Assembly: GCF_000419525.1 (NCBI RefSeq)
Contig: NZ_ATTE01000001.1
Location: 2,774,655 to 2,838,654, forward strand
Direction of reading: 5' to 3'
Source: Leucothrix mucor DSM 2157
GTDB lineage: Bacteria; Pseudomonadota; Gammaproteobacteria; Thiotrichales; Thiotrichaceae
Length of the DNA: 64,000 nucleotides
The first letter of the stretch is position 1. Each line of letters opens with the position of its first letter. Below the pieces are notes generated by a model. The model worked only from the letters and a program-made list of their open reading frames with translations, was not told the origin of the DNA and searched no databases. This document shows positions 38,408-56,361 of the stretch, in pieces. Both the position numbers and the translations under genes were made by a program.

Positions 38408-38516
38408 TTCAGCTGAAGGGCTTCATTATTTGGGGTATCTCTGCGGACAACTGCCAGATACCCCATCAAACACCCTACCCAGAACGATCCAAACTAAATT
38501 TACCTCATTTATTGCA

Positions 38517-38605: not shown

Positions 38606-38618
38606 GAACATAAATCCT

Positions 38619-38681: not shown

Positions 38682-38688
38682 CCTAAAA

Positions 38689-40678: not shown

Positions 40679-40744
40679 CTAGTTAATCAAGCACCCCCCT
40701 GCAATCAAGCCGGTCAATACAAATACAATGGCTAGGTATTTCAT
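40679..40744 (-). CDS. Possible tiny lipoprotein gene overlapping the hsdR stop
   Basis: A 21-codon frame whose ATG overlaps the hsdR TGA (ATGA, 40741-40744). A GGAGGACA ribosome site lies upstream. The product is a hydrophobic helix (KYLAIVFVLTGLIAGGC) ending in a lipobox-like AGGC and three residues, similar in size and layout to entericidin-like micro-lipoproteins. It is too short to be sure; expression is not shown. Confidence 0.3.
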   Translation of the reverse strand: MKYLAIVFVLTGLIAGGCLIN

Positions 40745-43700
40745 CTCGCTTGTCCTCCAGCCGTCAACAATTCAAGAATGAGCCTTGAAAACGCTTGGCT
40801 CCGCTCTGGATTCGATAACAGCTGCATCATCTGATTCTGATGGGCAGCACTGCTATCCAAGATGGCATCATCAATCGCTTGGGCAAAGTCTCCCAGCATT
40901 GCCTGCTCTGCCGTATTATGTTTAAGCTGGTTCATCACCTTCACGTTCTCTCTCATCTTGTCCCGGATCGTGTAAGCATAATTCACCATATCTTTCTCAC
41001 TCAGCCCATCCGTCACAAAGATCTCATTCAGCTTCTCAATAATCTGAGATAGGAACTCCGCTTTCTTATCCTTCGGCTTGGCAGCACCCAAGCTATCGCC
41101 CGGTATAATCTTGTAGTCTTCAGCATCCTCTTTGAGCTTAATGTGTTGTTGGCGTATTGCAGACAGCCGGTAATGACTCAGCACCACATTACTCAAATCA
41201 ACGTCATCATCCTCAACGACCGTCTCCCGCAGCATGGGCCGCAAGTTACGCGCATACAGGCTGAGCTTTTCCAGATCCTTATCGTCGTAGTCCACAATCT
41301 GAGACATAAACTCATAGAAGCGCACAAAGCTACCCAAGTCCTTTTTGAATATCTCCAGCTCGTCCTTAGCCTTCTTGCAATCCTTCAGGCTGTTCTCAGC
41401 ATTAGCGGTCACCACGGGGTCATTGAATTTCTCAACGCGATCAAACATATCCTTAGCTTCTTTATAAGCCTCAATCGCCTGCTTATAACGCTTCTGCCAA
41501 CGCTCCACCGCAGGTTTACAGATATTGGCAATCGCGGCATTGCTTTTGCTTTTAACAAAGAACGCCTCACAAAACTGCTCAACTTCATGCCAATAAAAAA
41601 TCTTGGCACTGCGCAACTTCTGTGACAGATCAAATATCAAGTCAGGGTCAGACACATCGGCTAATTCAGCGGTTTGGTAATACGGCTGGAACGCTTCCAG
41701 TATGTCATCCGGCTCATTAAAGAAGTCCAACACAAACGTGCCGCTCTCCGCTTTACCAGGGAACGTACGGTTTAAGCGCGACAAGGTTTGCACACACTCC
41801 ACACCGCCCAGCTTTTTATCCACGTACATGGCGCACAGCTTGGGTTGGTCAAAGCCGGTTTGAAATTTATTGGCGACGATCATCACTTGGTAATCATCAC
41901 TATCAAAGGCTTTGCGCATATCACGCCCTTTGAGATTAGGATTCATGCCATGCTCTGTAAACTTCTCACCCAGTAAGGCCGCCGCGTTCGGGTCTTGCTC
42001 GTTAAATTCCACCTCACCAGAAAAGGCCACCATGGCAGTGATCTTGTCATAGCCTTTTTCGGTAATGTATTTGTCAAAGCCTAACTTATAGCGCACGGCT
42101 TCTTTACGCGAACTGGTGACCACCATCGCTTTGGCTTGCCCACCCAGCAGGCCCATGATGTTGTCTTTGAAGTGCTCAATAATGACCTGCACCTTCTGAC
42201 TGATGTTGTAGTCATGCAGGCGCACCCACTGATTCAGCTTTACCTTGGCCTTTTTACTTTCGACTTCCGCATCACTTCCGGCAATCTTCATCGCCAGGTT
42301 ATAAGCGACTTTGTAATTGGTGTAATTCTTCAGAACATCGAGAATAAAGCCTTCCTCAATCGCTTGGCGCATACTGTATACATGGTAGGCCTCAGGCTTA
42401 TTGGTCTTGGACGGTGGTTCATCTGGCTTGGGTAGGCGGCCAAACAATTGCAGCGTTTTATCCTTCGGGGTTGCGGTAAAGGCTAAGTAACTGAGGTTCT
42501 TCGAGGCACGACGCGAGGCCACGGCGGCATCTAAAATATCCTCCGTCGTTAGTTCCTCATCATCCGCTTTGCTGTCAACCATCAACACTTCTTTTAATTG
42601 CCGTGCGGTACTGCCGGTCTGTGAGCTATGCGCCTCATCGGCAATCACCACATAGTTACGTTCTTTCAGGCTGACACTGTTCTCAATCGCTTTTAGCACA
42701 AACGGGAACGTTTGAATGGTGACAATAATGATCGGTTGCGAGTGCTCCAACGCTGAGGCCAATTGCTCTGATTTGGAGCCTTCACCCTCTTTACGATTAA
42801 TGCGCCCGACCACCCCATCGACTGAGGTGTACTGTGAAATCGTTTCTTGTAACTGGTCATCCAGTACCGTTCTGTCGGTCACCACGATCACCGACGCAAA
42901 CACCTTACTGCCATCCGCGTTATGGAGTGCCGATAACTGATGCGCAGACCAGGCAATGGAGTTGGACTTACCCGACCCGGCACTGTGTTGTATTAAATAC
43001 TTTTGACCAGGGCCTTCGGTTTTAGCCGCCTCAATCAGCTTACGCACCACATCCCACTGGTGATAGCGCGGGAAAATTAGCGTCTCTTTTTTGGTTTTAC
43101 GGCCTTCCCAGTCTTCCTTTTCCTTAATTTCAAGGTGCATAAACCGCGCAAGGATATTTAACAGGTTGTCCGGCAGTAACACCTCATTCCATAAATATCC
43201 CGTTGCGTATTGCTGCTTATCTTCTGGGACTTCATTACCCGCGCCACCGTCTTTGGTGCCTTTATTGAACGGCAAAAAGAACGTGTCATCACCTTCTAAG
43301 CGCGTCGCCATAAAAACCTGATCTTGGCTCACCGCAAAATGCACCAAGGCACCGCGTTTAAAGGTTAATAAGGGCTCAGGCTTTTTGGTCACCGGGTCAA
43401 TAGCAAAGCGCGTGGTTTTATATTGCTTAACCGCATTACTCACGGGCTGCTTAAACTCAGACTTCAACTCCAGCGTGGCCACCGGTAAGCCATTCACAAA
43501 CAATACCAGATCAATGCGCCACTGCTTGGCCCGAATGCCGGTCTCGGCTTCATGCGCATCGGTTGCCCACGGGCTATACACCAGCTCTGGCACCAGTCGC
43601 AGACGGTTCTTGTTGTAACGCGCTAAGGTATCGGGATTTAGATCATGCTCTGGCTTGAATTGGCATAAGCTGAAACGGGTGCCACGGTCGCGCAGCTCAT

Positions 43701-44013
43701 TACGCAGTACACCCAAGGTGCCAAAGGTTCGGATCTCTCGATTGGCCGCATTAGGGTCGGCTTTATTGAGCTGTGAGGCGACACGCTCCAAAAACTTCTG
43801 CTCTGGATTATTAGGGTAAAGCGCGCAAAATTTTTGCCATTGCTCGTCTTGGGTGTCTTTAACGAACCCGAGTACATCTTCGGAATATAAAGCCAGCTCA
43901 CGATTGTAGTGGTTGGAATTGCCGAGTAACCAGCCGTTTGCCAGCATTTGGCGGATCATGTCATTTTGGAAGATGTATTCTGTAGACTTGTCTCCACCAT
44001 AGAGTGCATTCAT
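40741..44013 (-). CDS. hsdR: Type I restriction enzyme R subunit
   Basis: 1090 residues. The N-terminal nuclease region carries a PD-(D/E)xK-like pattern (RIDLVLFVNGLPVATLELKSE). The SF2 motor follows: Walker A HSAGSGKSNSIAW, DEAH box VIADEAHSSQTG, FTATPKD, and motif VI-like region QTLSRLNRTFPGK. A helical C-terminal region (about 800-1090) docks to the methylase core in known complexes. All motifs look intact. It overlaps hsdS by 4 bp and is the last of the three hsd genes. Confidence 0.95.
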   Translation of the reverse strand: MNALYGGDKSTEYIFQNDMIRQMLANGWLLGNSNHYNRELALYSEDVLGFVKDTQDEQWQKFCALYPNNPEQKFLERVASQLNKADPNAANREIRTFGTLGVLRNELRDRGTRFSLCQFKPEHDLNPDTLARYNKNRLRLVPELVYSPWATDAHEAETGIRAKQWRIDLVLFVNGLPVATLELKSEFKQPVSNAVKQYKTTRFAIDPVTKKPEPLLTFKRGALVHFAVSQDQVFMATRLEGDDTFFLPFNKGTKDGGAGNEVPEDKQQYATGYLWNEVLLPDNLLNILARFMHLEIKEKEDWEGRKTKKETLIFPRYHQWDVVRKLIEAAKTEGPGQKYLIQHSAGSGKSNSIAWSAHQLSALHNADGSKVFASVIVVTDRTVLDDQLQETISQYTSVDGVVGRINRKEGEGSKSEQLASALEHSQPIIIVTIQTFPFVLKAIENSVSLKERNYVVIADEAHSSQTGSTARQLKEVLMVDSKADDEELTTEDILDAAVASRRASKNLSYLAFTATPKDKTLQLFGRLPKPDEPPSKTNKPEAYHVYSMRQAIEEGFILDVLKNYTNYKVAYNLAMKIAGSDAEVESKKAKVKLNQWVRLHDYNISQKVQVIIEHFKDNIMGLLGGQAKAMVVTSSRKEAVRYKLGFDKYITEKGYDKITAMVAFSGEVEFNEQDPNAAALLGEKFTEHGMNPNLKGRDMRKAFDSDDYQVMIVANKFQTGFDQPKLCAMYVDKKLGGVECVQTLSRLNRTFPGKAESGTFVLDFFNEPDDILEAFQPYYQTAELADVSDPDLIFDLSQKLRSAKIFYWHEVEQFCEAFFVKSKSNAAIANICKPAVERWQKRYKQAIEAYKEAKDMFDRVEKFNDPVVTANAENSLKDCKKAKDELEIFKKDLGSFVRFYEFMSQIVDYDDKDLEKLSLYARNLRPMLRETVVEDDDVDLSNVVLSHYRLSAIRQQHIKLKEDAEDYKIIPGDSLGAAKPKDKKAEFLSQIIEKLNEIFVTDGLSEKDMVNYAYTIRDKMRENVKVMNQLKHNTAEQAMLGDFAQAIDDAILDSSAAHQNQMMQLLSNPERSQAFSRLILELLTAGGQAR

Positions 44014-45347
44014 GCAACTGCCCCCTTGGTTTCGCTAACTGAAGGCTCTGGTGCTTGCCAGTCACGTACATCTATCTTCCCAGTAACTGCGGCTGAGATT
44101 AGGGCTGTGCGACGTTCTTTCATCAGTTCTATCGCTGTTACTGCTTTATTTATCAAATTGTCAAATACAGGGATTTGAGACTCAATAAAATTAATGATAT
44201 TAATCATTTCTTGCTCAACTGGAGCAGGGAAAGACAAATTAGCCAAAGTGCCTAAACCTAAGGTCTGTTGGGTTCCAAAAGTCCATGATAATTGAATAGC
44301 ATCTTTTACCTGTACTGATTGAAATAAGTAAAAAATATATTTCGAAGGTATACCTTTTCGGCTTCTAATTGTAGCCAAAGGCACCCAAACATTGAAAATT
44401 TTATCTGTTTCTACAATAGCAGCTACTCCAGTAGTAGCGCCTAACTTTACAACTAATATATCCCCCCGTTGAGGACAATAACGTTTGGAAAATACTTTAT
44501 GGTCGTCCTCAGAAATATAACCCCATTTCTTTTCAAAGTTGATATAGCCCTGGGAAACAGCCTCCGCCGAAATAAACGGGATACCACTCTCATGTTTTTG
44601 GGGGGTTAAATGTGGCCCGTCAATAATTGGGGCTGAAACCAAATACTTGAGAGAAGCGACCACCCAATGCTCTGGCACATCTCCCAACCACTCAACCCCA
44701 GAATCCCGCATCGGCGCATCAGGATTAAGGCCTTTGGTCACAGCATGACTAATCACCGCTTGGCGTTTTTCTTTTAGCAGCTTTATGAGCTGTTGTTGCT
44801 TTTCGATCAGGGTGTCGATTTTGGCGGTTTCGTGGTCGAGGAAGTCTGATATTTTTTGCTGCTCTTCAAATATGGGAAGTGGCACGCTAAATCCACCGAA
44901 CTTGTCGGTAGTTAAATGCTGCATAGTCGAGCCATGCGATGACTCATTCAACTCCCTCATGAACCACTTTGCAGCCCAATAGAAGTATTTTTTAAAAATA
45001 CTGTGCTTATTTACATCAACACGAAAAATATGCTGATTCAACCATGCTGGCTCTCCATCCCAAATGAAAACATCCAAAGTTGCAGACCATGAAATTAATA
45101 TATCACCCCTCATTACCTGATAACGAGCTGGTGGAATAAATGATGTTCTATTAATGTCGGAATCAGGGTTGGATAAATTTTGTATCCTTATGATTGGAAC
45201 CCCTTGAGTAGACCAATGTGTAGGTTTAAAAGCAAACCCATTTAAGTACTCACCAATAAATTTAACTTTACTCAATTTCCACGTAAGTGGAATCCTATGC
45301 CCATTTATATTTTTAAAATCTTGATATACGGAAAGTCCAGAAGACAT
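44010..45347 (-). CDS. hsdS: Type I restriction enzyme specificity subunit S
   Basis: 445 residues with two target recognition domains separated by conserved helical spacers. The spacer repeats are EEQQKISDFLDHETAKIDTL...IKLLKEKRQAVISHAVTKG (about 160-207) and EQEMINIINFIESQIPVFDNL...IELMKERRTALISAAVTGK (about 377-426). The TRDs should read the two halves of a bipartite site; the recognition sequence cannot be predicted. It overlaps hsdM by one base and hsdR by four. Confidence 0.95.
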   Translation of the reverse strand: MSSGLSVYQDFKNINGHRIPLTWKLSKVKFIGEYLNGFAFKPTHWSTQGVPIIRIQNLSNPDSDINRTSFIPPARYQVMRGDILISWSATLDVFIWDGEPAWLNQHIFRVDVNKHSIFKKYFYWAAKWFMRELNESSHGSTMQHLTTDKFGGFSVPLPIFEEQQKISDFLDHETAKIDTLIEKQQQLIKLLKEKRQAVISHAVTKGLNPDAPMRDSGVEWLGDVPEHWVVASLKYLVSAPIIDGPHLTPQKHESGIPFISAEAVSQGYINFEKKWGYISEDDHKVFSKRYCPQRGDILVVKLGATTGVAAIVETDKIFNVWVPLATIRSRKGIPSKYIFYLFQSVQVKDAIQLSWTFGTQQTLGLGTLANLSFPAPVEQEMINIINFIESQIPVFDNLINKAVTAIELMKERRTALISAAVTGKIDVRDWQAPEPSVSETKGAVA

Positions 45348-47683
45348 TACGAATGCACCTCCCGAAGCAGCTCCATAATCTCAGCACTGACCTTATCCAA
45401 GTCCGCATCAATCTCCACTAAATCTCTCGGCGGCTGGTACTCATAAAAATGCCGGTTAAACGGAATCTCATACCCCACAATCCCGATTTGGTGATCCTTG
45501 TCATCGGTCTTGGTCGCATCAATCCAGGCATCCGGCACATGCGGTTGTACTTCCTTGACGAAGTAAGCCTCATTCAAGGCATTCACGGCTTGGCTTGGGT
45601 CAAGCGCCACATTTTCATGGTCGCGCAGATTGCCATCCGGTTTGTATTCAATGGTTTTGGTGCCGACTTTAAACAAGCCATAGAGCGGATTGGCTTCCGT
45701 GTTTTTATGTACCTTCTTAATCACCTTTTCCGCCTCTGGATTGATCCAGCTCACCGCAGCGGTAATTTGCTTTTTCTGAGTGGCATCTAAGCTTAGGTCT
45801 TGCGCTTTGCAGGCGGCTTTAAGCACTGACTCATAGCGATTCATATCATCGTATTGCGCGGTGCCGATCTCAGCTTGCAGCGTTTTAGCCTTGAGTAGTA
45901 TCTGCTTTTGCTTGTCCCAGGTTTCAACGTGTAATAGCTCTTTGATTTTGGCTTCTTTCAGGTCGCTAAAGTTAGCTTTCAGGTGGATGCGAATATCTGT
46001 TGCCTGCTCAGCCAGCTTGCCATAGTGCTCACAGCCTTCCTCATCACGCCACTCAGCACCATAAGTTTCATAGATCCAGCGCATTGGCGCATCCAGTGGC
46101 TTGGCCGCAAAGCGCAGCTCAGCAATGCGTTCATCACTAAACTGATAGCTTTCGCGTAGTGGTCGCTCAATGGTGATCCGGCGATAGCCAAATTCATGAT
46201 TCGCAAAGATCTTACTGGCAAAGGTTTTAGGGGCGTCGGTTTTGGGGCTGGCAGACTGGCGGCCACGGTTGCTTTTTTGTTCCGCTGGCTTATCCACTGC
46301 ACGTGCATCAACCTCCTCAAACGCGCCAAAGGTACGGGTGATCGTGGCAATGTCATCCTCGCCCATTTCATTGCGCTTACTGCCCAAGGACTTACGCATT
46401 TTACTGTAGAGGTTCACGCCGTTAATCAGCTGCACCTTGCCCTTGCGCTCAGTGGACTTTTTATTCGAGAGCACCCACACATAGGTCGCAATGCCGGTGT
46501 TGTAGAACATATCCGTCGGTAAGGCGACAATGGTTTCCAACAGATCCGCTTCAAGGATATACCGGCGAATTTCAGATTCACCGGAGCCCGCGCCACCGGT
46601 AAACAGCGGGGAGCCATTGAGGATAATACCGATACGGCCACCGCCTTCGGAGGCATCGCGTAACTTGCTAATCAGGTGTAGCAGGAATAATAAGGAACCA
46701 TCAGACACACGCGGCAGACCAGGGCCAAAGCGCCCATCGAAGCCTTTTTGCAGGTGTTCATCCTTAATCAGGTCAACGATCTTTTTCCAGTCCACGCCAA
46801 ACGGCGGGTTCGACAGCATGTAATCAAACCTCACCGCGAAGAATTGATCGTTCGACAAGGTGTTACCCAGTTTGATGTTATTCACATCCTGACCCTTAAT
46901 CAGCATGTCCGCCTTACAGATGGCATAGCTTTCAGGGTTCAGCTCTTGGCCAAAGGCACGAATCACCGCATTGGGGTTTAATTCATGCACGTATTCCATG
47001 CCCGAAGACAGGAAGCCGCCCGTGCCTGCGGTGAGGTCGTAGAGCGTGCGAATAATGCCTTCTTTGGTCAGGGCATCATCGTCTTCCATAAACACTAAGG
47101 AAGTGGTCAGGCGCACAATATCGCGCGGGGTAAAGTGTTCTCCGGCAGTTTCATTCGAGCTTTCAGCAAAACGGCGTATCAGCTCCTCAAACACCAAACC
47201 CATATCGTGGTTGGTGATGGATTTGGGGCTTAGGTCGGTGGCTTTGACTTTCTCAACGATCTTGTACAGCAGATCGGCATCATTGAGCTGACCGATAAAC
47301 TCGGCAAAGTTGAAGTATTCAAAGATCTCACGCGCATCTTTTGAGAAGCCTTGGATATAGCTTTCCAGATTGCTTTTAATCTCGTTCTGGCCCAGCTTGG
47401 AGAGGTTCATCTGTGAGGTATTGAAGAAGCTGAGGCCACTGGCTCTGAGGAGGAATTTCTCTTGGGCTTCTTCGGGCAGGTTCATCCCTTCAATTCTTGC
47501 AAACTCAGTCAGTACCGAGTCCTTAGTGGCTTCCAGAACGCATTCCAAACGGCGTAACAGCGTGAACGGTAGAATAATGCGCCCGTATTGGCTTTGTTTG
47601 AAGTCACCGCGCAGTAAGTCAGCGATAGACCAGCAGTAGGCTGCAAGATTATTGGGGGTTTGATCCACGTAGAAATACTCCAT
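45347..47683 (-). CDS. hsdM: Type I restriction-modification system methyltransferase subunit M
   Basis: 778 residues. The N-terminal HsdM helical domain ([37 protein letters not shown]) is followed by the N6-adenine methylase with motif I as [13 protein letters not shown] and motif IV as SNPPFGVDW. It is longer than the roughly 500-residue classical HsdM: an extra C-terminal helical region (about 540-778) includes charged segments. Such long M subunits are known in a subset of type I systems. First gene of the hsd operon; the upstream gap holds no gene. Confidence 0.93.
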
Positions 47684-47840: not shown

Positions 47841-47859
47841 ACTATCCCACTGGCTCGAC

Positions 47860-49419
47860 TTACTTGCTGATTAACGCGCCGATACCCGCAATCGGTGATA
47901 GACCCTCTTCACTGACCCCAACACCTGCACCGATCGCAGGTGTGACTTTGATCTTCTTTTTGGGTGAATCGTCAACTAAGTGATCCGCTGCAACATAAAT
48001 AGCGCCGCACGAACTTTTAACCCTGCCCTTGGGTGTGGTCTCGACTATTCGCTCCTGCTTTCCACACTCGGGACAAATACAGCTCACTGGTTCATCGAGT
48101 GTGATATTTCGATTAGCCGGTTTGCGCTGCCCTTCCAAGTCATTAGAAGCTGATTGATAGTTCGGATTGAGCATGAACTTTGCCACGACCTGCCCACTCT
48201 TTCCGAAGTCGGGATTATCAATCAACACACCTTCAGCGTGTAACTGATCCAGAATATCAACGGCCTTCTGTTGGCGTGCGGCATCATCCACAAAACGCAC
48301 TTTCAGTTTAACCAATTGAGCTTTGACAGGTCTCACGGTGGGCTTTATACCTCCACTCAGAATCCCCTCTTTAATCGTTAAGTAATGACCATTCGAGTAA
48401 TCGACTTTGCCGCCCTGCTGATTGTCTTCATTTGGAGTACGTACACCAACACTCTCTGAAGGATTTAAAACCGCCCCCAGCCTAGTATCTTCTACGTGGG
48501 GGCGGTTTTCAGCGGCCCGATTATTTGTGCTTGTTAGATCATTGTTTTCAGCACTCGGAAGGGCGGTATTATTCACAGTTGCCGCCACTTTTTCACGTCC
48601 CAGATAGCCGCTAAATTTATTCGCCAGTGGGGATAGTTCATGCTGAACCGTTTTAAAATCTGATCCGTCCGATTGCCAGTCGTGGTTTGCTTTTGCCTTC
48701 AAGCTAAACGCTGGCATGGCCACCAAGGGGTTGATGAAAACAGCGCTGAAGGCACTACAGAAAATGGCCCCCACACTGCATACGATTGAGAATAGGGCGA
48801 TAACAATATAATGCTCAGTGGTGCCGCTCTGAATCATCTGTACCGGCTTGTGTAAGGTATGCGCGGCTTTCTGTTGGGCGATTGCAATCAGTTGATCCTG
48901 ATAGGCTCGCTCTGCGTCGATCTTGGCGATTAACTTCGATTCCTCGTCATGTATCCGGTTTGCACGGTGCAGCGCAGAATCCCGCGCCATCTCCGCAGAG
49001 CGCTCCATATTAGCAAATGATCCGTCTGTCACTTGGTACGAGGCGGTCTGTGTATCACGCCGGTCGGTGTCTGCCAGTTGGCTGCTAATACCGGCAACAA
49101 TCGCCATAATAGTCACGACGATGGCCAGCAAGCCCTGAATGATAGTACCGGATGAAAAACCGTGCAGTCGATACGATGTCACCATGCTTTTGGCTAGTGG
49201 TATTTCAATGCAGGCAATTCCAGCGCCCACGACCATCAAGGCCCACTTGAATATAAAACTACCCTCCGGGCTAGTGAGCTTGGATACCAGAAAATTAGAC
49301 AGGTGATAAGCGTTCATAAAGACCAGCGCCATCATAATGACCGCCATTAGCACCCCGAATGATTTAGACGCGCCAACGCTATGGCCAGCAATTGTTTGAT
49401 GTCTGAAGGTTGCACTCAT
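47860..49419 (-). CDS. Membrane protein with C-terminal zinc-ribbon-like domain, Rep operon
   Basis: 519 residues of unknown family. There are three N-terminal membrane helices (about 20-45, 58-78 and 92-115), a charged helical stretch (about 120-185), and a fourth helix (about 205-232). A long soluble tail contains a winged-helix-like segment (AVDILDQLHAEGVLI) and a Cys cluster (CICPECGKQERIVETTPKG, then SCGA) that could bind zinc. No Walker A is present, so it is not Zot. It overlaps the 69-residue gene by one base and ends the Rep operon. The role could be replication anchoring or transfer. Confidence 0.7.
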   Translation of the reverse strand: MSATFRHQTIAGHSVGASKSFGVLMAVIMMALVFMNAYHLSNFLVSKLTSPEGSFIFKWALMVVGAGIACIEIPLAKSMVTSYRLHGFSSGTIIQGLLAIVVTIMAIVAGISSQLADTDRRDTQTASYQVTDGSFANMERSAEMARDSALHRANRIHDEESKLIAKIDAERAYQDQLIAIAQQKAAHTLHKPVQMIQSGTTEHYIVIALFSIVCSVGAIFCSAFSAVFINPLVAMPAFSLKAKANHDWQSDGSDFKTVQHELSPLANKFSGYLGREKVAATVNNTALPSAENNDLTSTNNRAAENRPHVEDTRLGAVLNPSESVGVRTPNEDNQQGGKVDYSNGHYLTIKEGILSGGIKPTVRPVKAQLVKLKVRFVDDAARQQKAVDILDQLHAEGVLIDNPDFGKSGQVVAKFMLNPNYQSASNDLEGQRKPANRNITLDEPVSCICPECGKQERIVETTPKGRVKSSCGAIYVAADHLVDDSPKKKIKVTPAIGAGVGVSEEGLSPIAGIGALISK

Positions 49420-49628
49420 TACAGATCCCTCCGAGTGATATCGTAACGCTCAACGCCGCTTGCTTCATCGCGTCCAGTACAATAAAGAAACACGTTGAAG
49501 CCATAGGCCCGTTGTTCTCGAATGTATCTGTCCCGCGCTGCGTGACTTTCAAACGTCATTGATTCAGGTGGATAGTGTGTGACCTGCTTAGGCTGACTTG
49601 GATTAACTAGGCGTAGTTCGTTGTTCAT
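49419..49628 (-). CDS. Small protein of unknown function, Rep operon
   Basis: 69 residues, soluble, no recognised domain (MTFESHAARDRYIREQRAYGFNVFLYCTG). It overlaps both neighbours by 1-4 bp, which strongly supports it being a real, coupled gene. Confidence 0.65.
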   Translation of the reverse strand: MNNELRLVNPSQPKQVTHYPPESMTFESHAARDRYIREQRAYGFNVFLYCTGRDEASGVERYDITRRDL

Positions 49629-49876
49629 AATGTTACCTCCTGGGCTTCCATTTCTTTCCGGTGCGCCATCGCTTGTCGCTCACCTGCCATATCAATCAAA
49701 AAAATCAGATCATCAAAAAATTCATGCTCAGCAATTTTTAGTAGCGTGATTAAGCTGGCTACAGTCGCTTGCCAATCGCTCGTTGTGGAGGATTGCCACA
49801 GCTCAACAATAACGGCCTGAACCTTATGTAATCGAAACGCCGGATTAATCTCTAACGTGCTTTGAGTAGTCATCAC
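49625..49876 (-). CDS. Small protein of unknown function, Rep operon
   Basis: 83 residues, mainly helical, with an acidic/hydrophobic centre (LITLLKIAEHEFFDDLIFLIDMAGERQ). It overlaps the Rep gene stop and the next start by 4 bp each (ATGA type). No family recognised. Confidence 0.65.
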   Translation of the reverse strand: MMTTQSTLEINPAFRLHKVQAVIVELWQSSTTSDWQATVASLITLLKIAEHEFFDDLIFLIDMAGERQAMAHRKEMEAQEVTL

Positions 49877-51171
49877 GCGGCCTCCTGCTCAAGATCAAAG
49901 ATAAAGTCTTTCAGCCCGTCCTCACGGGTCAACCAATCAATAATTTTCTCGTATTCAATGCCACGTTGGATAAGCGTTCTAAACAAGCGACCATAGCTCT
50001 GTTTGGCCCAATGGATTTTCTTGCTGAGCAATAGGTTCTTTTCGCGGTTGAACTGCGTTAGTTGCGCCTGTGTAGCTTGCTCCAGTGTGAGTGATTCCCT
50101 GAATTCATCCATTAAAGCCCGAACGCCTGACCGGTCAATGGCAAAATAAGCATCTGGTCTTAGCATGACATCCAGCGGAATTTCACGGCCTGTCCCTTTT
50201 CGGCTCATTTCATGCTCAATCCGAACCCATGCACGGTCGGTGCTGTCTGGCTCTGCTTCTGATCCAAGTAATTCTTTGCCTTTTTCGTAAGCTCTGAAGA
50301 AGTCAGCAGAACCCTTACGGCTGCCAATGTAAGCCGTTAAACCAGCCGGACAATGCTTTATGGGTTGATAGGACTCTGGTGTGATATCACTCACTGTCAG
50401 TGGCGACCAATCTCCCGCCATGCCGAAGGATTGCAGCATGTTAGGGTTGCGCAGCTTGTCAGACCTGAAAAGACCCTCATTGACTGCTTGTTTGAACAGT
50501 AAAGGCACGGTATAGCCTTTTGCTAGGCAGTATTCCCCAGGTAAATCCAAAGCGATATCGGCACGGCTGATGCGCCACTCGTTCAACTGTAAGATGCTAA
50601 ACAGCTCGTTCCACAACTCAGGGTAGTTAAGCTGTAACAACTTGCAGCCAAGGCCTGTTAACTCAAACATGCCACCCTTATTGCGTCCTGTCTCACTGGT
50701 GGCGATATGGCCCAAGGTTAGATAATCAGCGTCACGACGCATTAGCAACTTAGCCGACTGCTCATAGCCGTGTAGCCCTTTTTCTGTCCATACGGTTTCA
50801 ATACCGGCTGAATTAAGAATGCCGCCCTTACCGTCGATATCACCCATTGAAGCGCGGAAGGCATCCAAGTCAGTAACCGTTAATCGCAACCAGTCAACTT
50901 TGGTGATATTAGTCGCTAAGTTGTCTTTGGCGTGATTTGGTAATTCATAACCCCCCGTATTACAGTACGGGGGATAGGTCGCGTTTTTCGCTCCTTTAAA
51001 ATCAATAGGTTGAGTGGTTCTAACTTGATTAGTTACAGAACTATCGATGTCTAAACCACCTACCGCATTCGATTTAAGGCTCAGAAGTGCTTCACGCTCT
51101 ACTTGAAGCTTTTTGGCTTTATTACGGCTTGCACGAGCAGCATTTACCACGCCTTTAGGAAGTTTGCTCAT
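49873..51171 (-). CDS. RstA-like rolling-circle replication initiation protein
   Basis: 432 residues. It matches the layout of the Rep_trans/phage RstA-type initiators: an N-terminal domain beginning KVDWLRLTVTDLDAF, a segment LNEWRISRADIALDLPGEY, then AYIGSRKGSADFFRAYEKGKEL and WVRIEHEMSRKGTGREIPLDVML. The ExxxK-like and YxxxK patterns suit HUH-independent Rep_trans nicking, but the catalytic Tyr cannot be named with certainty. Expected role is nicking a double-strand origin to start rolling-circle replication. It is preceded by a 55-residue ORF with a 4-bp overlap. Confidence 0.75.
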   Translation of the reverse strand: MSKLPKGVVNAARASRNKAKKLQVEREALLSLKSNAVGGLDIDSSVTNQVRTTQPIDFKGAKNATYPPYCNTGGYELPNHAKDNLATNITKVDWLRLTVTDLDAFRASMGDIDGKGGILNSAGIETVWTEKGLHGYEQSAKLLMRRDADYLTLGHIATSETGRNKGGMFELTGLGCKLLQLNYPELWNELFSILQLNEWRISRADIALDLPGEYCLAKGYTVPLLFKQAVNEGLFRSDKLRNPNMLQSFGMAGDWSPLTVSDITPESYQPIKHCPAGLTAYIGSRKGSADFFRAYEKGKELLGSEAEPDSTDRAWVRIEHEMSRKGTGREIPLDVMLRPDAYFAIDRSGVRALMDEFRESLTLEQATQAQLTQFNREKNLLLSKKIHWAKQSYGRLFRTLIQRGIEYEKIIDWLTREDGLKDFIFDLEQEAA

Positions 51172-51335
51172 GATCGAACCTCCACAATAGACATGTATTT
51201 TATTTTTGCATTAGGGTTGGATGTAGAGATTTGGGCAAATGCAATTCTGCTGGCTTCTTCTCTCGATGTAGCGGAGATCAAAAGAATTTCATGCAGTGGG
51301 TAGTATATTTTGAACTGCCTAATTGAAGTGCTCAT
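51168..51335 (-). CDS. Small ORF leading the Rep operon
   Basis: 55 residues (starts MSTSIRQFKIYYPLHEILL, ends YMSIVEVRS). Its TGA overlaps the Rep ATG by 4 bp, the same coupling as elsewhere in this operon. No domain recognised; a small alpha/beta protein is plausible. Confidence 0.55.
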   Translation of the reverse strand: MSTSIRQFKIYYPLHEILLISATSREEASRIAFAQISTSNPNAKIKYMSIVEVRS

Positions 51336-51413
51336 GACAATAACCCCCCGTTAAGAGACAGGCTGAGGAAGTACTGTGATGAGGTCAAAGGTGTAGTAAC
51401 TAGGGACGTGCGT

Positions 51414-51512
51414 ATGCAACGAGGTATGATAGAATCAACCATGCTGAAAACTCCTATAAATTCGCGTTTATGTATGTATTTAGCGTTAGGCTTTGACGTT
51501 GACGCGTCTTAG
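51414..51512 (+). CDS. Possible 32-residue ORF opposite the Rep operon leader
   Basis: ATG at 51414 with AGGGA 8 bases upstream; ends in TAG at 51510-51512, six bases before a strong terminator stem. The product ends RLCMYLALGFDVDAS. The ORF-terminator pair suggests a short rightward transcript running divergent from the Rep operon. Could instead be a non-coding regulatory RNA. Confidence 0.3.
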   Translation: MQRGMIESTMLKTPINSRLCMYLALGFDVDAS

Positions 51513-51517
51513 CCAGA

Positions 51518-51550
51518 AGCCTTACCAGTTGACGCTGGTGGGGCTTTTTT
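51518..51550 (+). terminator. Strong terminator of a short rightward transcript
   Basis: Eleven-pair stem from 51518-51528 to 51535-51545 (with two G-T pairs), six-base loop, followed by TTTTTT. It points right and separates the Rep operon leader region from the convergent RHH gene. Confidence 0.7.
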
Positions 51551-51559
51551 ACTATTTGC

Positions 51560-51721
51560 TTATGCTGCTTCTGGTTTAGGCTTCTCCTTCTCTCGTTCAA
51601 TTACTTCATTTAGCATCCGGACAATCTCACCATTCATTGATCGATTGTTTTCACTGGCAGCCTTAACAATCCATTGATGTGTTGCTGCGGGTAATCTAAC
51701 TTGTGTTTTAGCTGTTTTCAT
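51560..51721 (-). CDS. Arc-type ribbon-helix-helix regulator (leftward)
   Basis: 53 residues. The N-terminal strand KTQVRLPAATHQWIVKAA and the helix pair ENNRSMNGEIVRMLNEVIE match the Arc/Mnt family, which binds DNA as dimers. AGGAGACAC ribosome site directly upstream of the ATG. Divergent from a second RHH gene with three palindromes in between. Probably a repressor controlling island gene expression. Confidence 0.8.
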   Translation of the reverse strand: MKTAKTQVRLPAATHQWIVKAASENNRSMNGEIVRMLNEVIEREKEKPKPEAA

Positions 51722-51735
51722 GTGTCTCCTTAATG

Positions 51736-51777
51736 TGCCACTACCGTAGTGGTATCGGTGCCACTATAGCAGTGGCA
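51736..51777. promoter_or_regulatory. Tandem TGCCACT-type operators near the leftward RHH gene
   Basis: TGCCACTA-CCG-TAGTGGTA (51736-51754, one mismatch) and TGCCACT-ATAGC-AGTGGCA (51759-51777, perfect). Their shared half site and their position 15-56 bp upstream of the leftward RHH start suggest binding by one of the two Arc-like proteins. Confidence 0.6.
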
Positions 51778-51786
51778 TAAATTTAA

Positions 51787-51805
51787 TACACCTATTTTAG
51801 GTGTA
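51787..51805. promoter_or_regulatory. TACACCTA operator near the rightward RHH gene
   Basis: TACACCTA-TTT-TAGGTGTA, a perfect 8-bp dyad ending 11 bp upstream of the rightward RHH ATG. The half site differs from the TGCCACT operators, consistent with two repressors of different specificity. Confidence 0.6.
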
Positions 51806-51816
51806 ATATTCAGCAC

Positions 51817-52029
51817 ATGGCCAAACAACAAGACTTCTTTAAAACACAAATTCGTATACCGTCAGATATTTATGGCGCGATAAAAGATGCCGCCGAAGAA
51901 AGTGGACGTAGCATCAATGCCGAGATAATAGAGCTGTTTTTAATTGGCCTAGGTGAAAAGGAACCACCCATAAACAGTGTAATGATCCGGAAAATCATAC
52001 GAGAAGAGCTCCAAAAAATAAGCAAGTGA
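51817..52029 (+). CDS. Arc-type ribbon-helix-helix regulator (rightward)
   Basis: 70 residues. FKTQIRIPSDIYGAIKDAAEESGRSINAEIIELFLIGLG is a clear Arc/Mnt-like RHH domain; the remainder is a charged helix (IRKIIREELQKISK). It is the only clearly supported rightward gene of the island's right half apart from a possible micro-ORF, and faces the leftward RHH gene across a 95-bp operator region. Confidence 0.82.
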   Translation: MAKQQDFFKTQIRIPSDIYGAIKDAAEESGRSINAEIIELFLIGLGEKEPPINSVMIRKIIREELQKISK

Positions 52030-52075
52030 CCAAACACTAGTCTGGCGTGCTTCACAATAGGTGCGGCTCTGGTTT

Positions 52076-52591
52076 CTAGGTCGTAAACTTGCCGATTTCA
52101 CCCTTGGCTTCAAGTTCTGCAATCATAAGTTTGTTTTTTTCGGCTGCTCTGTCCAATTCACGATTTACCTCATCCAGATCGATAGAAACGGCATGCGTAA
52201 CTTCCTGCTCGATTTTATCTTGCCATCCATGTGCATTCTTCATGAACAAATTTAAAAATGGTGAGTTCAGTGCCCCAACTACTCCGGCTTCAAGGATGTA
52301 AACCATTTGGCAATCGCGCGCACGCGTATAGGCTTCTAAAAACTCCGGGTGAACTGGTTCCTCGCTGTCTTTTTTTGTCTTGTTTGCCCAGTTCCAAAGT
52401 GTTCCCACGGTAACGCCGATCCCCAGTGCAAAGCGCTCCATCGTTGGCATTCTACGGGCTACCATTTGTATTGTTCCCTGCTTGTTAACACTCTCACGAT
52501 AAGAGGGCTCATCAATCGAAAAGAACTCCTCCATTCTCTGTGCATACTCAGGTTTGTACTTAGTTGGGCGACCATTCTTTTTAGGTTGCAT
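52076..52591 (-). CDS. Phage terminase small subunit-like DNA-packaging protein
   Basis: 171 residues. The N-terminal GRPTKYKPEYAQRMEEFF and the HTH region ALGIGVTVGTLWNWANKTKK...HPEFLEAYTRARD are typical of P22 gp3/Sf6-like small terminases, as is the later LNLFMKNAHGWQDKIEQEV. The tail is a charged helix. Small terminases choose the DNA to be packaged. No large terminase, portal or capsid gene is present, so it would have to work with another phage's packaging motor. Confidence 0.8.
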   Translation of the reverse strand: MQPKKNGRPTKYKPEYAQRMEEFFSIDEPSYRESVNKQGTIQMVARRMPTMERFALGIGVTVGTLWNWANKTKKDSEEPVHPEFLEAYTRARDCQMVYILEAGVVGALNSPFLNLFMKNAHGWQDKIEQEVTHAVSIDLDEVNRELDRAAEKNKLMIAELEAKGEIGKFTT

Positions 52592-52728
52592 ATATCACCT
52601 TCAAATCTCAATTATCGTTAATTGAGCTACTCACGATTTATTACTGTGGTGTGGTTGTTTGGGCAAATCTAAAGCTGGTTATCAGGAAGAGAAGTAATCC
52701 TCTGTATCGATACTCAGCAAGATTTATT

Positions 52729-53499
52729 TTATTTACCCTGCCAGACATTGAAGCCGCGCAGGGGCGTGTCATCCGTATCCGCTTTGCGGCTACCTGGTGT
52801 GGTGCCTTTGAAAATGATGGCAAGCTTTGCCAGTCCTTTTGCAGTGATCATAGGCTGACTATATGAATGCCCATTCTTGGATACTCCTGAGCGCGTATTC
52901 ATTAGGCCAGAAGTGATACGATGCTCAAAGGCGACACGTTCATTTTTACCGTTCTTGTAACACCATTTATTATTATCTACCCAAGCGCATAGAGCCTTAG
53001 GGCTGAGCTTTAACTGTTTGGCTGCATCACGGATAGAGTGTGAGCCATTGGCATTCGATAGACGATCCAGTGCATTGGCTTTGGGTAATAGTATTTGATT
53101 CTGTTCTGCTATATCCGCAGCTATACGTAATGCCTCAGCAAAGGTTTGTGGCAATTGAGGGGCCTTAGGCTTTGATCTGTTTATCCAATACTCTGTGATC
53201 TGTCTGAGGTAATTCACGTCCTTAGTAGCAACCAGCATTTTACTTTCTACTTCCGGCAGGTCGTATAAGACTACTTGTCCATTAGGCCTTAGAGTGGATG
53301 GGATTTTCCCATCCTCTATTTCAGACCTAAATATCACCTTGATGTCGCGGTGAAGGTCACCTAGCAACATCGGCTTGGTTCGATTAGCATTTAACAGCTC
53401 TAGGATATCCCTTGATGACATAAAGTTTGTCGTTGTTGTAACACCAGATCCAGAAGTGGTTAGAACTGCTCCTGCGCCAAGGGCTTGCTTTGGATTCAT
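52729..53499 (-). CDS. Phage antirepressor-like protein (KilAC-type C terminus)
   Basis: 256 residues. The N-terminal domain (SSRDILELLNANRTKPMLLGDLHRDI...VVLYDLPEVESKMLVATKDVNYLRQITEYW) resembles the Rha/phage regulatory domain. The C-terminal region (NGSHSIRDAAKQLKLSPKALCAWVDNNKWCYKNG...MITAKGLAKLAIIFKG) is the KilAC DNA-binding fold. It probably relieves repression upon induction. It follows the AlpA-like gene by 1 bp. Confidence 0.82.
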   Translation of the reverse strand: MNPKQALGAGAVLTTSGSGVTTTTNFMSSRDILELLNANRTKPMLLGDLHRDIKVIFRSEIEDGKIPSTLRPNGQVVLYDLPEVESKMLVATKDVNYLRQITEYWINRSKPKAPQLPQTFAEALRIAADIAEQNQILLPKANALDRLSNANGSHSIRDAAKQLKLSPKALCAWVDNNKWCYKNGKNERVAFEHRITSGLMNTRSGVSKNGHSYSQPMITAKGLAKLAIIFKGTTPGSRKADTDDTPLRGFNVWQGK

Positions 53500-53500
53500 C

Positions 53501-53722
53501 TTAGACCTCCTCTACAGCAGGTATGCCGTTATTCGCAAGCTCACGAATATACTCAGCGTCCCATACTGACACTCGCGCACCATAACGCATAGGCTCCTGA
53601 ATGCGTCCTTGCTTGACATACAACCAAAATGTAGAAACTGCAATACCTAGAAATGGCGCAGCTTCCTTTACCCTTACCTTCCCCTCAGCCGCAAAAGGCT
53701 TTACTTGCACTGTTGTGTTCAT
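53501..53722 (-). CDS. AlpA-family DNA-binding regulator/excisionase-like protein
   Basis: 73 residues from the ATG at 53722; an upstream ATG at 53734 would add four. The MerR-like winged HTH is clear: VRVKEAAPFLGIAVSTFWLYVKQGRIQEPMRYGARVSVWDAEYIRELANN. AlpA proteins activate or act as excisionase for P4-type integrases and PICI-like satellites. It lies upstream of the antirepressor gene. Confidence 0.82.
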   Translation of the reverse strand: MNTTVQVKPFAAEGKVRVKEAAPFLGIAVSTFWLYVKQGRIQEPMRYGARVSVWDAEYIRELANNGIPAVEEV

Positions 53723-53809
53723 CATTGACACCATCTGCCTTGTTTAGATGAATCTATTAGATAGTAAATTTTATGATTTAAATAACCATCTAGGGGGACT
53801 AAAGTCGGA

Positions 53810-54430
53810 TTATTTTTTTGGCCTGCCTTTCTTGGTGGCGATCTTGAACTCTTTAGCCCATAAAGTGCACTTTTTCAGAATTGTACTGCTTTTAACGCTC
53901 GGAAAAATTAAGCAGACCTTGTTAGCAAAGTCTTCATTGTTTTTGTAGTCAAGTCCCGAGTTAGGAACTAACTTCCATTCAAACCACATTTCTTTCACTT
54001 CATCTATATCTTTGTTTTTATTTGTTTTTCTGTGATGCTTCTTCATTGCTTCCCTGGTTTTACTAGAGTGATTTACCTTTTTTATGGAGAGAATTTCCTT
54101 ATCTACAACTGAGATTTCACTATTCAAATGATTCAGTTTTCTACTCAGTGATTGTTGATTAATTAATCTACAATGCTGAGAAATCAGCGTACGTAAAATT
54201 GGAAGTAAGTCATCTATTTCGGTGTTTTCTTTAGTAATGAGATTCGCAATCTCATTACCAATATGCTTAACTAATTCATGGTTTGATTTTTTTTCTGAAA
54301 ACTTATCGGTAGCTTCAAGCACTATTTGATCGAGATCCCAAATTAAATCAAGCTGCCATAGACTATCTGTGGACTGAACCCTATTTTGAAGAAATACTCT
54401 CAAATCTTTCATGTGGTATAGGTATTCCAT
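53810..54430 (-). CDS. Protein of unknown function, AT-rich island gene
   Basis: 206 residues, helical, lysine-rich, ending in a basic TKKGRPKK tail that could bind DNA. A later Met (MKDLRVFLQ, residue 7) is an alternative start. No family recognised. The base composition is visibly more AT-rich than its neighbours, suggesting separate acquisition. It lies between the AlpA-like and integrase genes, a place where satellites often carry accessory genes. Confidence 0.6.
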   Translation of the reverse strand: MEYLYHMKDLRVFLQNRVQSTDSLWQLDLIWDLDQIVLEATDKFSEKKSNHELVKHIGNEIANLITKENTEIDDLLPILRTLISQHCRLINQQSLSRKLNHLNSEISVVDKEILSIKKVNHSSKTREAMKKHHRKTNKNKDIDEVKEMWFEWKLVPNSGLDYKNNEDFANKVCLIFPSVKSSTILKKCTLWAKEFKIATKKGRPKK

Positions 54431-54461
54431 ATTGCACCTTCACAACAACCTTAAGTAAAAG

Positions 54462-54512
54462 CCGCGCCACTTGGTAAGGTGTCCAGCTTGTCCCCCGTCG
54501 GGTAAGGCGCGG
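54462..54512 (-). other. GC-rich inverted repeat after the integrase gene
   Basis: CCGCGCC (54462-54468) pairs with GGCGCGG (54506-54512) across a 37-base loop. It starts 10 bp beyond the integrase stop. No T run follows, so it is only a possible transcript end. Confidence 0.3.
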
Positions 54513-54521
54513 TGAACTCTA

Positions 54522-55760
54522 TTATGCCTGATTGCGCTTTATGGGTATTACATCGGCACCCGTTCGCAAACCGTCAAGATAATCCGCGTAATACTGCATC
54601 ATGGCCCGGCGCTCTGGGAGATTCTCACTCCGATCATAAGCGCGCCTGACATCATTGCCGACTACATGGGCAAGCTGCCTTTCTATTAAGTCTGAAGAAT
54701 AACCAAGCTCATAAAGCATTGTTGATGCCATCGCCCGAAAGCCGTGTGCGGTCATTTGGGTGTTGTCATAGCCTAGCCGCCTGATTGCCTGCCTTACCGT
54801 GTTGTCACTCATTGGTCGGCTTTTTGAACGCACACCCGGAAACACAAAACCGTATTGACCTGTAAGCGGCTGAAGGTCATGCAATAACTCTACGGCTTGC
54901 CGTGATAGTGGCACCACATGGGCAGAGCGTGTTTTAACTTTCTCAGGCGGTATTAGCCAGCGTGATTCCTGAAAGTCAATTTCGCCCCACTCCATGCGTC
55001 GAAGTTCGCCGGGTCTGGTGAATGTATAGGCTGATAGTTTTAATGCCGCTTGTACGGTGTAATCACCCTTATACGCCCAACAACCACGCAAGAAAGCAGC
55101 GACTTGTTGCGGCTCTGTAATCGCTGCAAAGTGCTTTTGCTTTACAGGTGGCAATGCCCCCTTTAAGTCTGCGGTCTGATCTCGTTTGGCCCTACCAGTA
55201 GCAACCGCAAATCTAAACGCCTGCCCTATTACCTGCTTTACTCTGTGGGCCGTCTCAACGACTCCCCTACTTTCAACACGCTTTAAGCATTGCAATATGT
55301 CCGGCGGTTCAATTTGGGATATTGGCACCGATCCAAGCCACGGGAATACATCATTTTCTAATCTGGCTAATACGCGGGTTTTGTGGCTGTCGCTCCAGTT
55401 CGCAGAATAGCTAACAAACCATTCACGCGCTACAGATTCAAAGCTGTCTTGTGCTAATTGTTGCTTCACTGCTTTTAGGTGCTGCTTATGGGCTGAAGGG
55501 TCTACGCCTTTGGTAAGCTGCTCCCGTGCTTCGTCGTGAATAGTCCGGGCATGTTTCAGGCTCATCTCAGGATAAGCGCCAATAGAAAGCGTTTTTTCTT
55601 TTCCCAGTACCCGGTATTTATAGCGCCATAGCTTCGACACACTACCGCTGGACTCCCTCACCAGTAGATACAGGCCGCCACCATCACCATACTTTTTTGG
55701 TTTACCGTCTGGTTGCGGCTTTGCTGCCTGAATCGCTTTATCTGTAAGGTTTCGCTTCAT
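54522..55760 (-). CDS. P4-type tyrosine integrase
   Basis: 412 residues from the ATG at 55760 (MKRNLTDKAIQAAKPQ); an upstream ATG at 55799 would add 13 atypical residues. The N-terminal DUF4102 arm-binding domain includes KYGDGGGLYLLV and SIGAYPEMSLKHAR. A core-binding SAM-like domain follows, then the catalytic domain with Arg in TRPGELRRMEW, the HGFR box (TAHGFRAMASTML), a His in ERQLAHVVGN, and Tyr in VRRAYDRS. All catalytic residues are present. It lies 164 bp from the tmRNA 3' end, as expected for a tmRNA-targeting integrase. Confidence 0.95.
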   Translation of the reverse strand: MKRNLTDKAIQAAKPQPDGKPKKYGDGGGLYLLVRESSGSVSKLWRYKYRVLGKEKTLSIGAYPEMSLKHARTIHDEAREQLTKGVDPSAHKQHLKAVKQQLAQDSFESVAREWFVSYSANWSDSHKTRVLARLENDVFPWLGSVPISQIEPPDILQCLKRVESRGVVETAHRVKQVIGQAFRFAVATGRAKRDQTADLKGALPPVKQKHFAAITEPQQVAAFLRGCWAYKGDYTVQAALKLSAYTFTRPGELRRMEWGEIDFQESRWLIPPEKVKTRSAHVVPLSRQAVELLHDLQPLTGQYGFVFPGVRSKSRPMSDNTVRQAIRRLGYDNTQMTAHGFRAMASTMLYELGYSSDLIERQLAHVVGNDVRRAYDRSENLPERRAMMQYYADYLDGLRTGADVIPIKRNQA

Positions 55761-55761
55761 T

Positions 55762-55820
55762 TGGGGGTATCTCCACTCTGAAAGATTCAATGCCCCCAAT
55801 TTATACCCCCATTGGGGGTA
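55762..55820. repeat. ATACCCCCA repeats at the right end (candidate integrase arm sites)
   Basis: TGGGGGTAT (55762-55770), ATACCCCCA (55803-55811) and TGGGGGTAG (55813-55820) lie just upstream of the integrase start, matching the repeats at 38661-38681. Confidence 0.55.
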
Positions 55821-55850
55821 GCTTTCAATGAACCAACTTAGATTACTATA

Positions 55851-55948
55851 GACGAAAAAAAACCCTCAGAGCGTTATGCTGTAAGGGTTTTTAGACTTTC
55901 TTGTACCAGTTTGGACAGTGTATTGGTGGAGACGGCGGGAATCGAACC
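55851..55948. repeat. Right boundary repeat (tmRNA 3' end plus terminator)
   Basis: Partner of 38517-38605. It contains the tmRNA terminator and the 3' end of ssrA with the shared core CAGTGTATTGGTGG at 55916-55929. Confidence 0.8.
55861..55889 (-). terminator. Terminator of ssrA
   Basis: AACCCT / AGGGTT stem with an inner CAG/CTG pair; on the minus strand the stem is followed by a run of eight T (complement of 55855-55862). It lies 35 bases beyond the tmRNA 3' CCA. Confidence 0.7.
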
Positions 55949-56278
55949 CGCGTCCGCAAATCCGCTGCCTGAAGGCGCTACATGCTTAGATCCGTCATTA
56001 ATTTAGCAAACTCAGTCTCGACGGGCAGAGAAAGAATCCGCGATTTCAGTTAGGTTTTAACGCTTTGGCCCTGAACAGTCCGCCACGCGATACCGCATAA
56101 ATGATTCCCGTTCAGCACCTGCGGGCGAACACTGGCGGGAATTTAGCAGGCTGTTAAGCCGCTAAAGCGTAGTTGTTATCGTTAGCAACTAATAGTTTAC
56201 AGCTGGGATTTAAGTGGTCACTGCATCCACTGCATGCTCCCCAGGTTTTGTAATCCACGTCGAAGCCAGGTCGTCCCC
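55924..56278 (-). ncRNA. ssrA: tmRNA
   Basis: The 5' end GGGGAC pairs with GTCTCC before the 3' ACCA, making the tRNA-like acceptor. The T-arm GCGGGTTCGATTCCCGC is intact. The tag reading frame on the minus strand (56186-56154) is GCT AAC GAT AAC AAC TAC GCT TTA GCG GCT TAA, giving ANDNNYALAA. Length about 355 nt, normal for gammaproteobacteria. The mobile island at 38.5-55.9 kb is inserted at its 3' end, and the right repeat restores the mature RNA. Confidence 0.96.
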
Positions 56279-56361
56279 AAGATTACACGCTGGTGAATGA
56301 CGCAGTGTACTTCATCCCGAAGGAGCTGTATAGCACTGCGTACATCTATTACCAACTCTCT

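Follow-up and report, generated by a model that had tools for sequence, protein, structure and literature searches.

The analysed DNA, hereafter the window, was a 64,000-nucleotide stretch of the Leucothrix mucor DSM 2157 genome (contig NZ_ATTE01000001.1), and it contained a bounded, mobile 17.35-kb island (~38579–55929; coordinates are window positions, and genes lie on the reverse strand unless marked +) integrated between repeats at the 3′ end of ssrA. This island is read as a satellite resembling phage-inducible chromosomal islands (PICIs), in which a rolling-circle initiator replaces the primase replicon (probability roughly 0.58), and a new variant of phage satellite is plausible. It carried genes for insertion, rolling-circle copying, and a terminase small subunit (TerS), and none was recognised for virus building, so that it probably spreads by hijacking phages. 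An initial annotation, made from the sequence letters, had proposed a satellite with an RstA-like initiator in place of a primase/helicase at 49873–55760, and the open reading frames (ORFs) named in it were all located there in the ORF list. If this reading is true, the satellite would use its own nickase, a dedicated rolling-circle initiator, to make the concatemers that serve as terminase substrate, and it would connect tailed-phage satellites with plasmids of the rolling-circle type and with inovirus-type replicons.

Boundaries and integration site

The integration target ssrA (transfer-messenger RNA; 55924..56278) was identified by ARAGORN and Rfam (RF00023, 5e-81), and its 3′ end formed the right att site. 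The right att region (55843..55947) and the left one (38509..38609) constituted an imperfect ~101–105-bp repeat of the ssrA 3′ end plus a terminator-like run, with an exact 14-bp core CAGTGTATTGGTGG at 55916–55929 and 38579–38592, respectively; the left copy was taken to be the 3′ end of ssrA, displaced together with its terminator. With up to 3 mismatches allowed, a 22-base pattern of the right copy matched itself alone, since one base is missing from the left copy. The empty site was found in Leucothrix pacifica (genome G029), where ssrA was separated by ~350 bp from the next gene, while ssrA and that same gene were 17.5 kb apart in the window; this common gene was SH3-like (by eye), displayed 35% identity over 219 amino acids (aa), and was followed in L. 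pacifica by miaB (by eye). This difference in spacing, together with the att repeats, therefore delimited the island as ~38579–55929, and the interval of the initial annotation proved too small, covering its right third. The island genes were open and closely packed, and the att repeats and ssrA were retained.

A total of 17 island ORFs were listed: 10 were scanned with Pfam and PHROGs (the ten proteins below), hsdM, hsdS, and hsdR with PADLOC, the gene for a 283-aa protein (p283) with NCBIfam and Pfam, and a serine recombinase gene with NCBIfam; these 15 of the 17 comprised all but the ORFs p55 and p69. No gene for terminase large subunit (TerL), portal, capsid, or tail was recognised among the 15 scanned ORFs, in agreement with the earlier claim that structural genes and a large terminase were missing, and the ten proteins included no capsid, portal, protease, or primase family.

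Terminase small subunit

A 171-aa protein (52076..52591) was assigned with confidence to TerS from its Pfam, PHROGs, and tblastn matches and from its alignment motifs, as the initial annotation had predicted. It matched PF16677 (GP3_package, 1.6e-9), phrog_3064 (7.5e-24), phrog_309 (1.2e-11), and phrog_606 (3.9e-10), and tblastn recovered 278 phage records, with at least 80% of the protein covered in six of them and 31.7–36.2% identity in the best 30 of the 278. The TerS homologue was located upstream of TerL in all four phage neighbourhoods examined (directly in three, with an HNH gene between in one), and a five-member alignment displayed conserved GRPTKYxPEY, PT..RF...IG...TL..W, and helix-turn-helix (HTH) regions. 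NCBIfam gave no terminase match and a weak methyltransferase match (0.0041) far under its cut-off; the PDB sequences gave no relevant match, and the viral-contig collection gave one locus, with 38% identity over residues 109–146 only. The presence of this TerS suggests packaging by a helper.

Rolling-circle initiator

The 432-aa Rep protein (49873..51171) was a Rep_trans (RstA-like) rolling-circle initiator, as proposed initially: it matched PF02486 (9.2e-9) and phrog_453 (1.7e-31), and its closest solved relative by profile was PDB 4cij, labelled GST REP (3.2e-6). Rep matched 55 phage records, of which the best 30 were by name mostly CTXphi, other inoviruses, and other small phages, with ~25–26% identity to CTXphi RstA, and it matched two plasmid records, both weakly. 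The tyrosine Y393 of a YGR motif was invariant across the Rep alignment and may be catalytic. The Pfam scan at E≤1 showed Rep_trans alone, with no HTH domain, and the 231-nt stretch upstream of Rep folded no better than shuffles (z −0.70). A structure prediction of Rep (mean pLDDT 47.8) was too poor to judge and was set aside.

At 1e-5, Rep was detected in 8 of the 63 genomes of the order: the own genome, five with strong matches (G029, G061, G060, G042, and G039), and two with weak ones (G041 and G016). The strong relatives occupied six places, two of them in G061, and displayed 58–67% identity. In the class sample, 1 of 369 genomes matched at 1e-15, namely the own genome; among the genomes searched, the strong Rep family was confined to this order. 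The viral-contig collection contained no relative by single-sequence or profile search; the genome-contig collection yielded none by single sequence and three loci by profile, which were the sister contigs L011, L016, and L015.

Integration and regulatory genes

The P4-type tyrosine integrase (54522..55799) reported initially was confirmed by the domains Arm-DNA-bind_3, Phage_int_M, and Phage_integrase (PF13356, PF22022, and PF00589; 6.9e-36 to 2.1e-23) and by phrog_1 (5.2e-68). It was followed by a 206-aa protein without assigned family (p206, 53810..54430; best 0.015 in PHROGs and 0.24 in Pfam), which had no PADLOC match at 1e-5 and no similarity to the 226-aa ORF in the same position of the L. 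pacifica island. The next gene (53501..53734) weakly matched phrog_9834 (3e-6), annotated 'excisionase and transcriptional regulator', and was 46% identical over 67 aa to an L. pacifica island ORF; NCBIfam excise (0.052) and Pfam HTH_17, under its cut-off, were its other matches, and the phrog_9834 match together with its position beside int suggests an AlpA/excisionase-like regulator. The profile searches proposed in the initial annotation thus bore out TerS and Rep_trans, and its AlpA was weakly matched, by phrog_9834 together with position and not by the Phage_AlpA family.

The antirepressor was a 256-aa KilAC protein (52729..53499; PF03374 1.9e-17, phrog_63 3.5e-31, 373 phage records), again in line with the early call, and it had no relative in the viral-contig collection; we take KilAC to belong to the Bro network. 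Two Arc-like repressor genes were divergent, Arc-like repressor 1 (51817..52029, +; PF03869 3.7e-6) and Arc-like repressor 2 (51560..51721; PF03869 2.1e-6), and a pattern search located between them two 15-bp palindromes CCACTN5AGTGG, 23 bp apart (51738..51775). Against these two, 0.03 were expected in the window, the pattern having been picked after the repeat was seen; as candidate operators, the palindromes would serve the leftward genes leading to Rep, p83, p69, and p519. The combination of Arc-like repressors and antirepressor is reminiscent of the immI region of phage P22. Terminator-like sites at 51100–56300 were more numerous than in shuffles (11 vs 5.2).

Around Rep, the 55-aa p55 (51168..51335; from the ORF list) overlapped its start and the 83-aa p83 (49625..49876; no match below 0.1 in Pfam or PHROGs) overlapped its end; these were followed by the 69-aa p69 (49419..49628; 47% over 64 aa to an L. 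pacifica island ORF) and the 519-aa membrane protein p519 (47860..49419), which had four transmembrane-like segments, no Walker A motif, 55% identity to its L. pacifica counterpart, and weak family matches (0.069 in Pfam and 0.098 in PHROGs).

Sister islands

The six strong Rep places were compared with the window. A membrane-protein gene was located one to three small ORFs downstream of Rep in all seven places, and TerS was present in one of the seven (two of these contigs break off inside the island or close to it). The membrane proteins were grouped by single-linkage BLAST at 1e-4; those other than the L. pacifica version were 11–20% identical to that of the window by alignment, and hydropathy gave one to four transmembrane-like segments. 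None of the seven contained a Walker A motif, and there was thus no sign of a coupling ATPase.

Island ends were sought in three of the five genomes: (i) in G061, a 47-bp repeat at tRNA-Met surrounded a tandem pair of islands, and a tentative 11-bp repeat at tRNA-Leu bounded the first G061 island; (ii) in G060, a 19-bp repeat lay at tRNA-Gly; and (iii) in L. pacifica, the repeat search found no ends. Related islands of ~14–17 kb recurred at other tRNA sites. Their genes included ProQ/FinO-like genes, DUF29 copies, AAA_25 (contig L012), Prim-Pol (L014), and DUF5681 plus a RepL-like gene (L011). Three tandem related ORFs were present at L012:12131-13519 and at L014:13327-14711, each set beside a ProQ/FinO-like gene, and the one scanned was DUF29. 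DUF5681 of the L. pacifica island was considered as a stand-in TerS and is not claimed as such: in the one annotated phage neighbourhood examined it lay among lysis, tail, and tRNA genes, not beside a terminase, and the unannotated contig L055 was without a recognised TerL.

In the second island of the tandem pair in G061, the Rep slot was occupied by a Phage_GPA protein (1.4e-28; L041:2370-4565), and the ORFs around it matched those flanking Rep in other sister islands. Phage_GPA is a rolling-circle initiator of a Pfam family other than Rep_trans, and this exchange favours a replication role for Rep.

The first member of the pair carried a lone 503-aa capsid-like protein (L013:3418-4929), which was 48.9% identical over 93% to the C-terminal half of a long Microcystis phage yong1 ORF ('Mu-like prophage I protein') and 24% identical to part of Brevibacillus phage Emery gp6, encoded between head morphogenesis and tail genes; in viral contig L048, a homologous long ORF came after TerL-, portal-, and head-like ORFs (by eye). 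One of four members of its alignment matched a head maturation protease family, its best PHROG was of unknown function (2.1e-14), and its major head protein matches were weak (0.015, 0.017, and 0.066); its profile found no relevant match among PDB sequences. The 503-aa protein is probably a capsid domain without the protease part, and the long phage ORFs are probably protease–capsid fusions. A structure prediction of the protein was set aside (mean pLDDT 31.1). No portal or terminase was recognised among its scanned neighbours, and the sister proteins that were scanned (part of the ORFs) included no recognised cluster of structural genes. The initial annotation had named structural genes in homologous islands as evidence against a satellite, and the capsid-like protein bears on this point, as one gene and not as a structural module.

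Comparison with known satellites and related elements

Gram-negative PICIs are laid out in zones comprising int with AlpA, the Bro network, replication with a primase, and a late zone (PMC10111431, PMC6092414). They share with the island (i) integrase and AlpA together (in the island a weakly matching AlpA-like gene), a replication zone, a cargo/late zone, and in some cases terS; (ii) mostly unidirectional genes and a specific att site; and (iii) Bro-network regulators, if KilAC is counted among these (PMC6092414, PMC10111431). In contrast to these PICIs, the island had Rep_trans, no primase among the ten proteins, TerS before the replication gene, and a membrane protein near Rep. Its order of int, AlpA-like gene, KilAC regulator, replication, and cargo resembled the PICI layout, the exceptions being the replication gene and where TerS lies. 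Among the features by which PICIs are recognised, the island possessed an integrase with a specific att site and terS and lacked a full structural set among its scanned ORFs, and the weakly matching AlpA-like gene had the fitting position near int. PICIs are further characterised by an origin located 3′ of their replication gene and by induction and packaging that depend on a phage. As the layout fits except for the primase, the island is taken to work like a PICI and is not called one.

In the arrangement of the leading genes, the nearest known system is AH14b, a 16.8-kb satellite of Pseudomonas sp. ANT_H14 with an integrase, one gene, an AlpA-like gene, and then a Rha-family regulator (PMC4936722). 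AH14b uses helper capsids, as is proposed for the present island, and it differs in a P4-type primase and a helicase-like gene and in that its authors found no terminase gene (PMC4936722). PICMI, the phage-inducible chromosomal minimalist island, combines integrase and AlpA, of which the island has the integrase and an AlpA-like gene, and defends against competing phages, its rolling-circle replication being inferred and its concatemer packaging shown by its authors; it differs by integration next to fis, the presence of a primase, and no terS homologue found in the published account (PMC10803314). The island, at ssrA and with no primase among the scanned proteins, accordingly fell outside PICMI.

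The PLE satellite of Vibrio cholerae has its own initiator RepA, not a P4-type primase, and non-primase initiators in satellites are therefore already known; its initiator type differs from Rep_trans, and its other gene content differs as well. P4-like satellites carry psu, sid, delta, and alpha primase, and none of these families was found among the ten proteins. The capsid-forming PICIs (cf-PICIs) carry their own capsid module, and no capsid family was present among the same ten. CTXphi RstA belongs to the same Rep_trans initiator family as the island Rep; CTXphi and its satellite RS1 differ in being a filamentous single-stranded system without terminase. The absence of TerL, portal, capsid, and tail genes among the proteins scanned also set the island apart from prophages. 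ICEBs1 and Tn916 are MOBT elements. Like the island, such elements are integrative and contain a catalytic domain related to Rep_trans (PMC11389934). They differ by an added HTH domain and by working with conjugation genes, neither of which was seen in the island, and they are characterised by an oriT and the use of a conjugation channel.

Where the published accounts consulted named a replication gene, it was a primase or pri/rep in PICI, HE-PICI, PICMI, AH14b, and StCI, a primase being reported for streptococcal satellites (PMC13376191); for small marine elements, rolling-circle replication was inferred without a replication gene (PMC12324425). No island combining integrase, AlpA, Rep_trans, and terS was recognised in a literature search that covered few subscription journals and parts of the papers found.

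Proposed cycle and alternative explanations

From the genes, families, boundaries, and empty site observed, we infer each step of the following cycle. The Arc-like repressors would keep the divergent promoter region shut until a helper phage, acting through KilAC and the AlpA-like gene product, relieved repression; the integrase would excise a circle from ssrA; Rep_trans would nick an origin, and rolling-circle replication would generate concatemers; the island TerS would dock these on the large terminase of the helper for filling of helper capsids; and in the next cell the DNA would circularise and reinsert at ssrA, while the serine recombinase might resolve multimers and the type I restriction-modification cargo might protect the host.

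Several observations weigh against this satellite reading. TerS was detected in 1 of 63 genomes of the order at 1e-6 and in 1 of 369 genomes of the class sample at 1e-8 (many of them drafts), in each case the own genome. In the L. pacifica island a DUF5681 protein was present but nothing that matched TerS, and the G061 island had the lone capsid-like gene. Alongside Rep_trans, sister islands carried an 897-aa Prim-Pol protein (L014:16369-19062), a 419-aa AAA_25 protein (L012:15347-16606), or the RepL-like protein (L011), and Rep_trans therefore may not be the sole replication gene there. The island itself had Rep_trans where PICIs have a primase (pri/rep) replicon, its AlpA-like protein had no Phage_AlpA match in Pfam at E≤1, and packaging offers no explanation for the membrane protein encoded near Rep. 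Promoter-like sites at 51100–56300 were fewer than in shuffles (3 vs 8.4). Finally, a helper search of the host genome with Phage_portal, Phage_capsid, Terminase_6N, and phrog_2 found nothing at E≤0.01 for the first three; with these, matches were present in 4, 4, and 6 of 14 control genomes, respectively. The phrog_2 match in the host was a RecD-like helicase (by eye), and phrog_2 was unspecific, matching 11 of the 14 controls. A resident helper of another family is possible; otherwise an external one would be needed, as for PICMI. The initial interpretation was thus partly supported: the TerS and Rep assignments, a bounded island with an empty site in a related species, the lack of a recognised structural gene among the scanned ORFs, and the PICI-like order favour it, and it is weakened by the lone capsid-like gene of a sister island, the detection of TerS in the own genome only, the other replication-type genes of the sisters, and the lack of a helper of the families searched.

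The main competing explanation, which we consider less likely, is an integrative element, either a rolling-circle plasmid or a mobilizable element, in which Rep_trans would act as initiator and/or MOBT-like relaxase, terS and the antirepressor would be phage-derived passengers, and the membrane protein would tie Rep_trans to the envelope or to a helper conjugation channel. MOBT relaxases have Rep_trans proteins among their relatives (PMC11389934), the membrane-protein gene was constant downstream of Rep (7/7) and TerS was not (1/7, with the two truncated contigs mentioned above), and other replication-type genes occurred in sister islands; the failure to detect TerS in the other genomes searched likewise leaves room for terS as a passenger. 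On the other side, Rep showed no HTH domain in Pfam, whereas MOBT has one; the seven membrane proteins were without Walker A; the plasmid matches to Rep were just two and weak; and the joint presence of TerS, KilAC, and the AlpA-like gene suggests phage parasitism.

It is improbable that the island is a prophage in decay or a patchwork of phage remnants retaining integrase, regulators, and terS: the integrase, antirepressor, and terS families are indeed frequent in phages, but the open and closely packed genes, the retained att repeats and ssrA, the ~14–17-kb related islands at other tRNA sites with no structural cluster among the sister proteins scanned, and the mostly inovirus and other small-phage matches of Rep (best 30 of 55 records) speak against it. 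Least credible, to the point of being very improbable, is a satellite of a filamentous phage exported as single-stranded DNA, like RS1 with CTXphi, since the RstA-like Rep with its mostly inovirus matches (best 30 of 55) and the single strands produced by rolling-circle replication are offset by the absence of inovirus Zot/pI and coat families among the ten proteins, the CTXphi RstA identity of ~25–26%, and a TerS for which we know of no role in filamentous assembly.

Beyond the satellite reading of this one island, it is possible, and offered tentatively, that Leucothrix, Thiothrix, and relatives share a distinct integrative lineage composed of an integrase, an AlpA-like gene, an exchangeable rolling-circle initiator (Rep_trans/Phage_GPA), and a membrane protein; it would have repeatedly gained genes for packaging or for capsids from phages (terS in this island and, in a relative, a single capsid gene of the HK97 type), turning a plasmid-like replicon into a tailed-phage satellite.

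Cargo and remaining genes

The left part of the island (40741–47683) carried as cargo a type I restriction-modification set: methyltransferase HsdM (45347..47683; PADLOC 1.7e-282), specificity subunit HsdS (44010..45347; 1.5e-111), and restriction subunit HsdR (40741..44013; 4e-39). It was followed by the Lcl_C-domain protein p283 (39660..40511; PF07603 8.7e-19) and by the serine recombinase, possibly a multimer resolvase (38689..39237), which matched NCBIfam serine recombinase models under their cut-offs (best 2.6e-27) and was 71% identical to its counterpart in sister island A.

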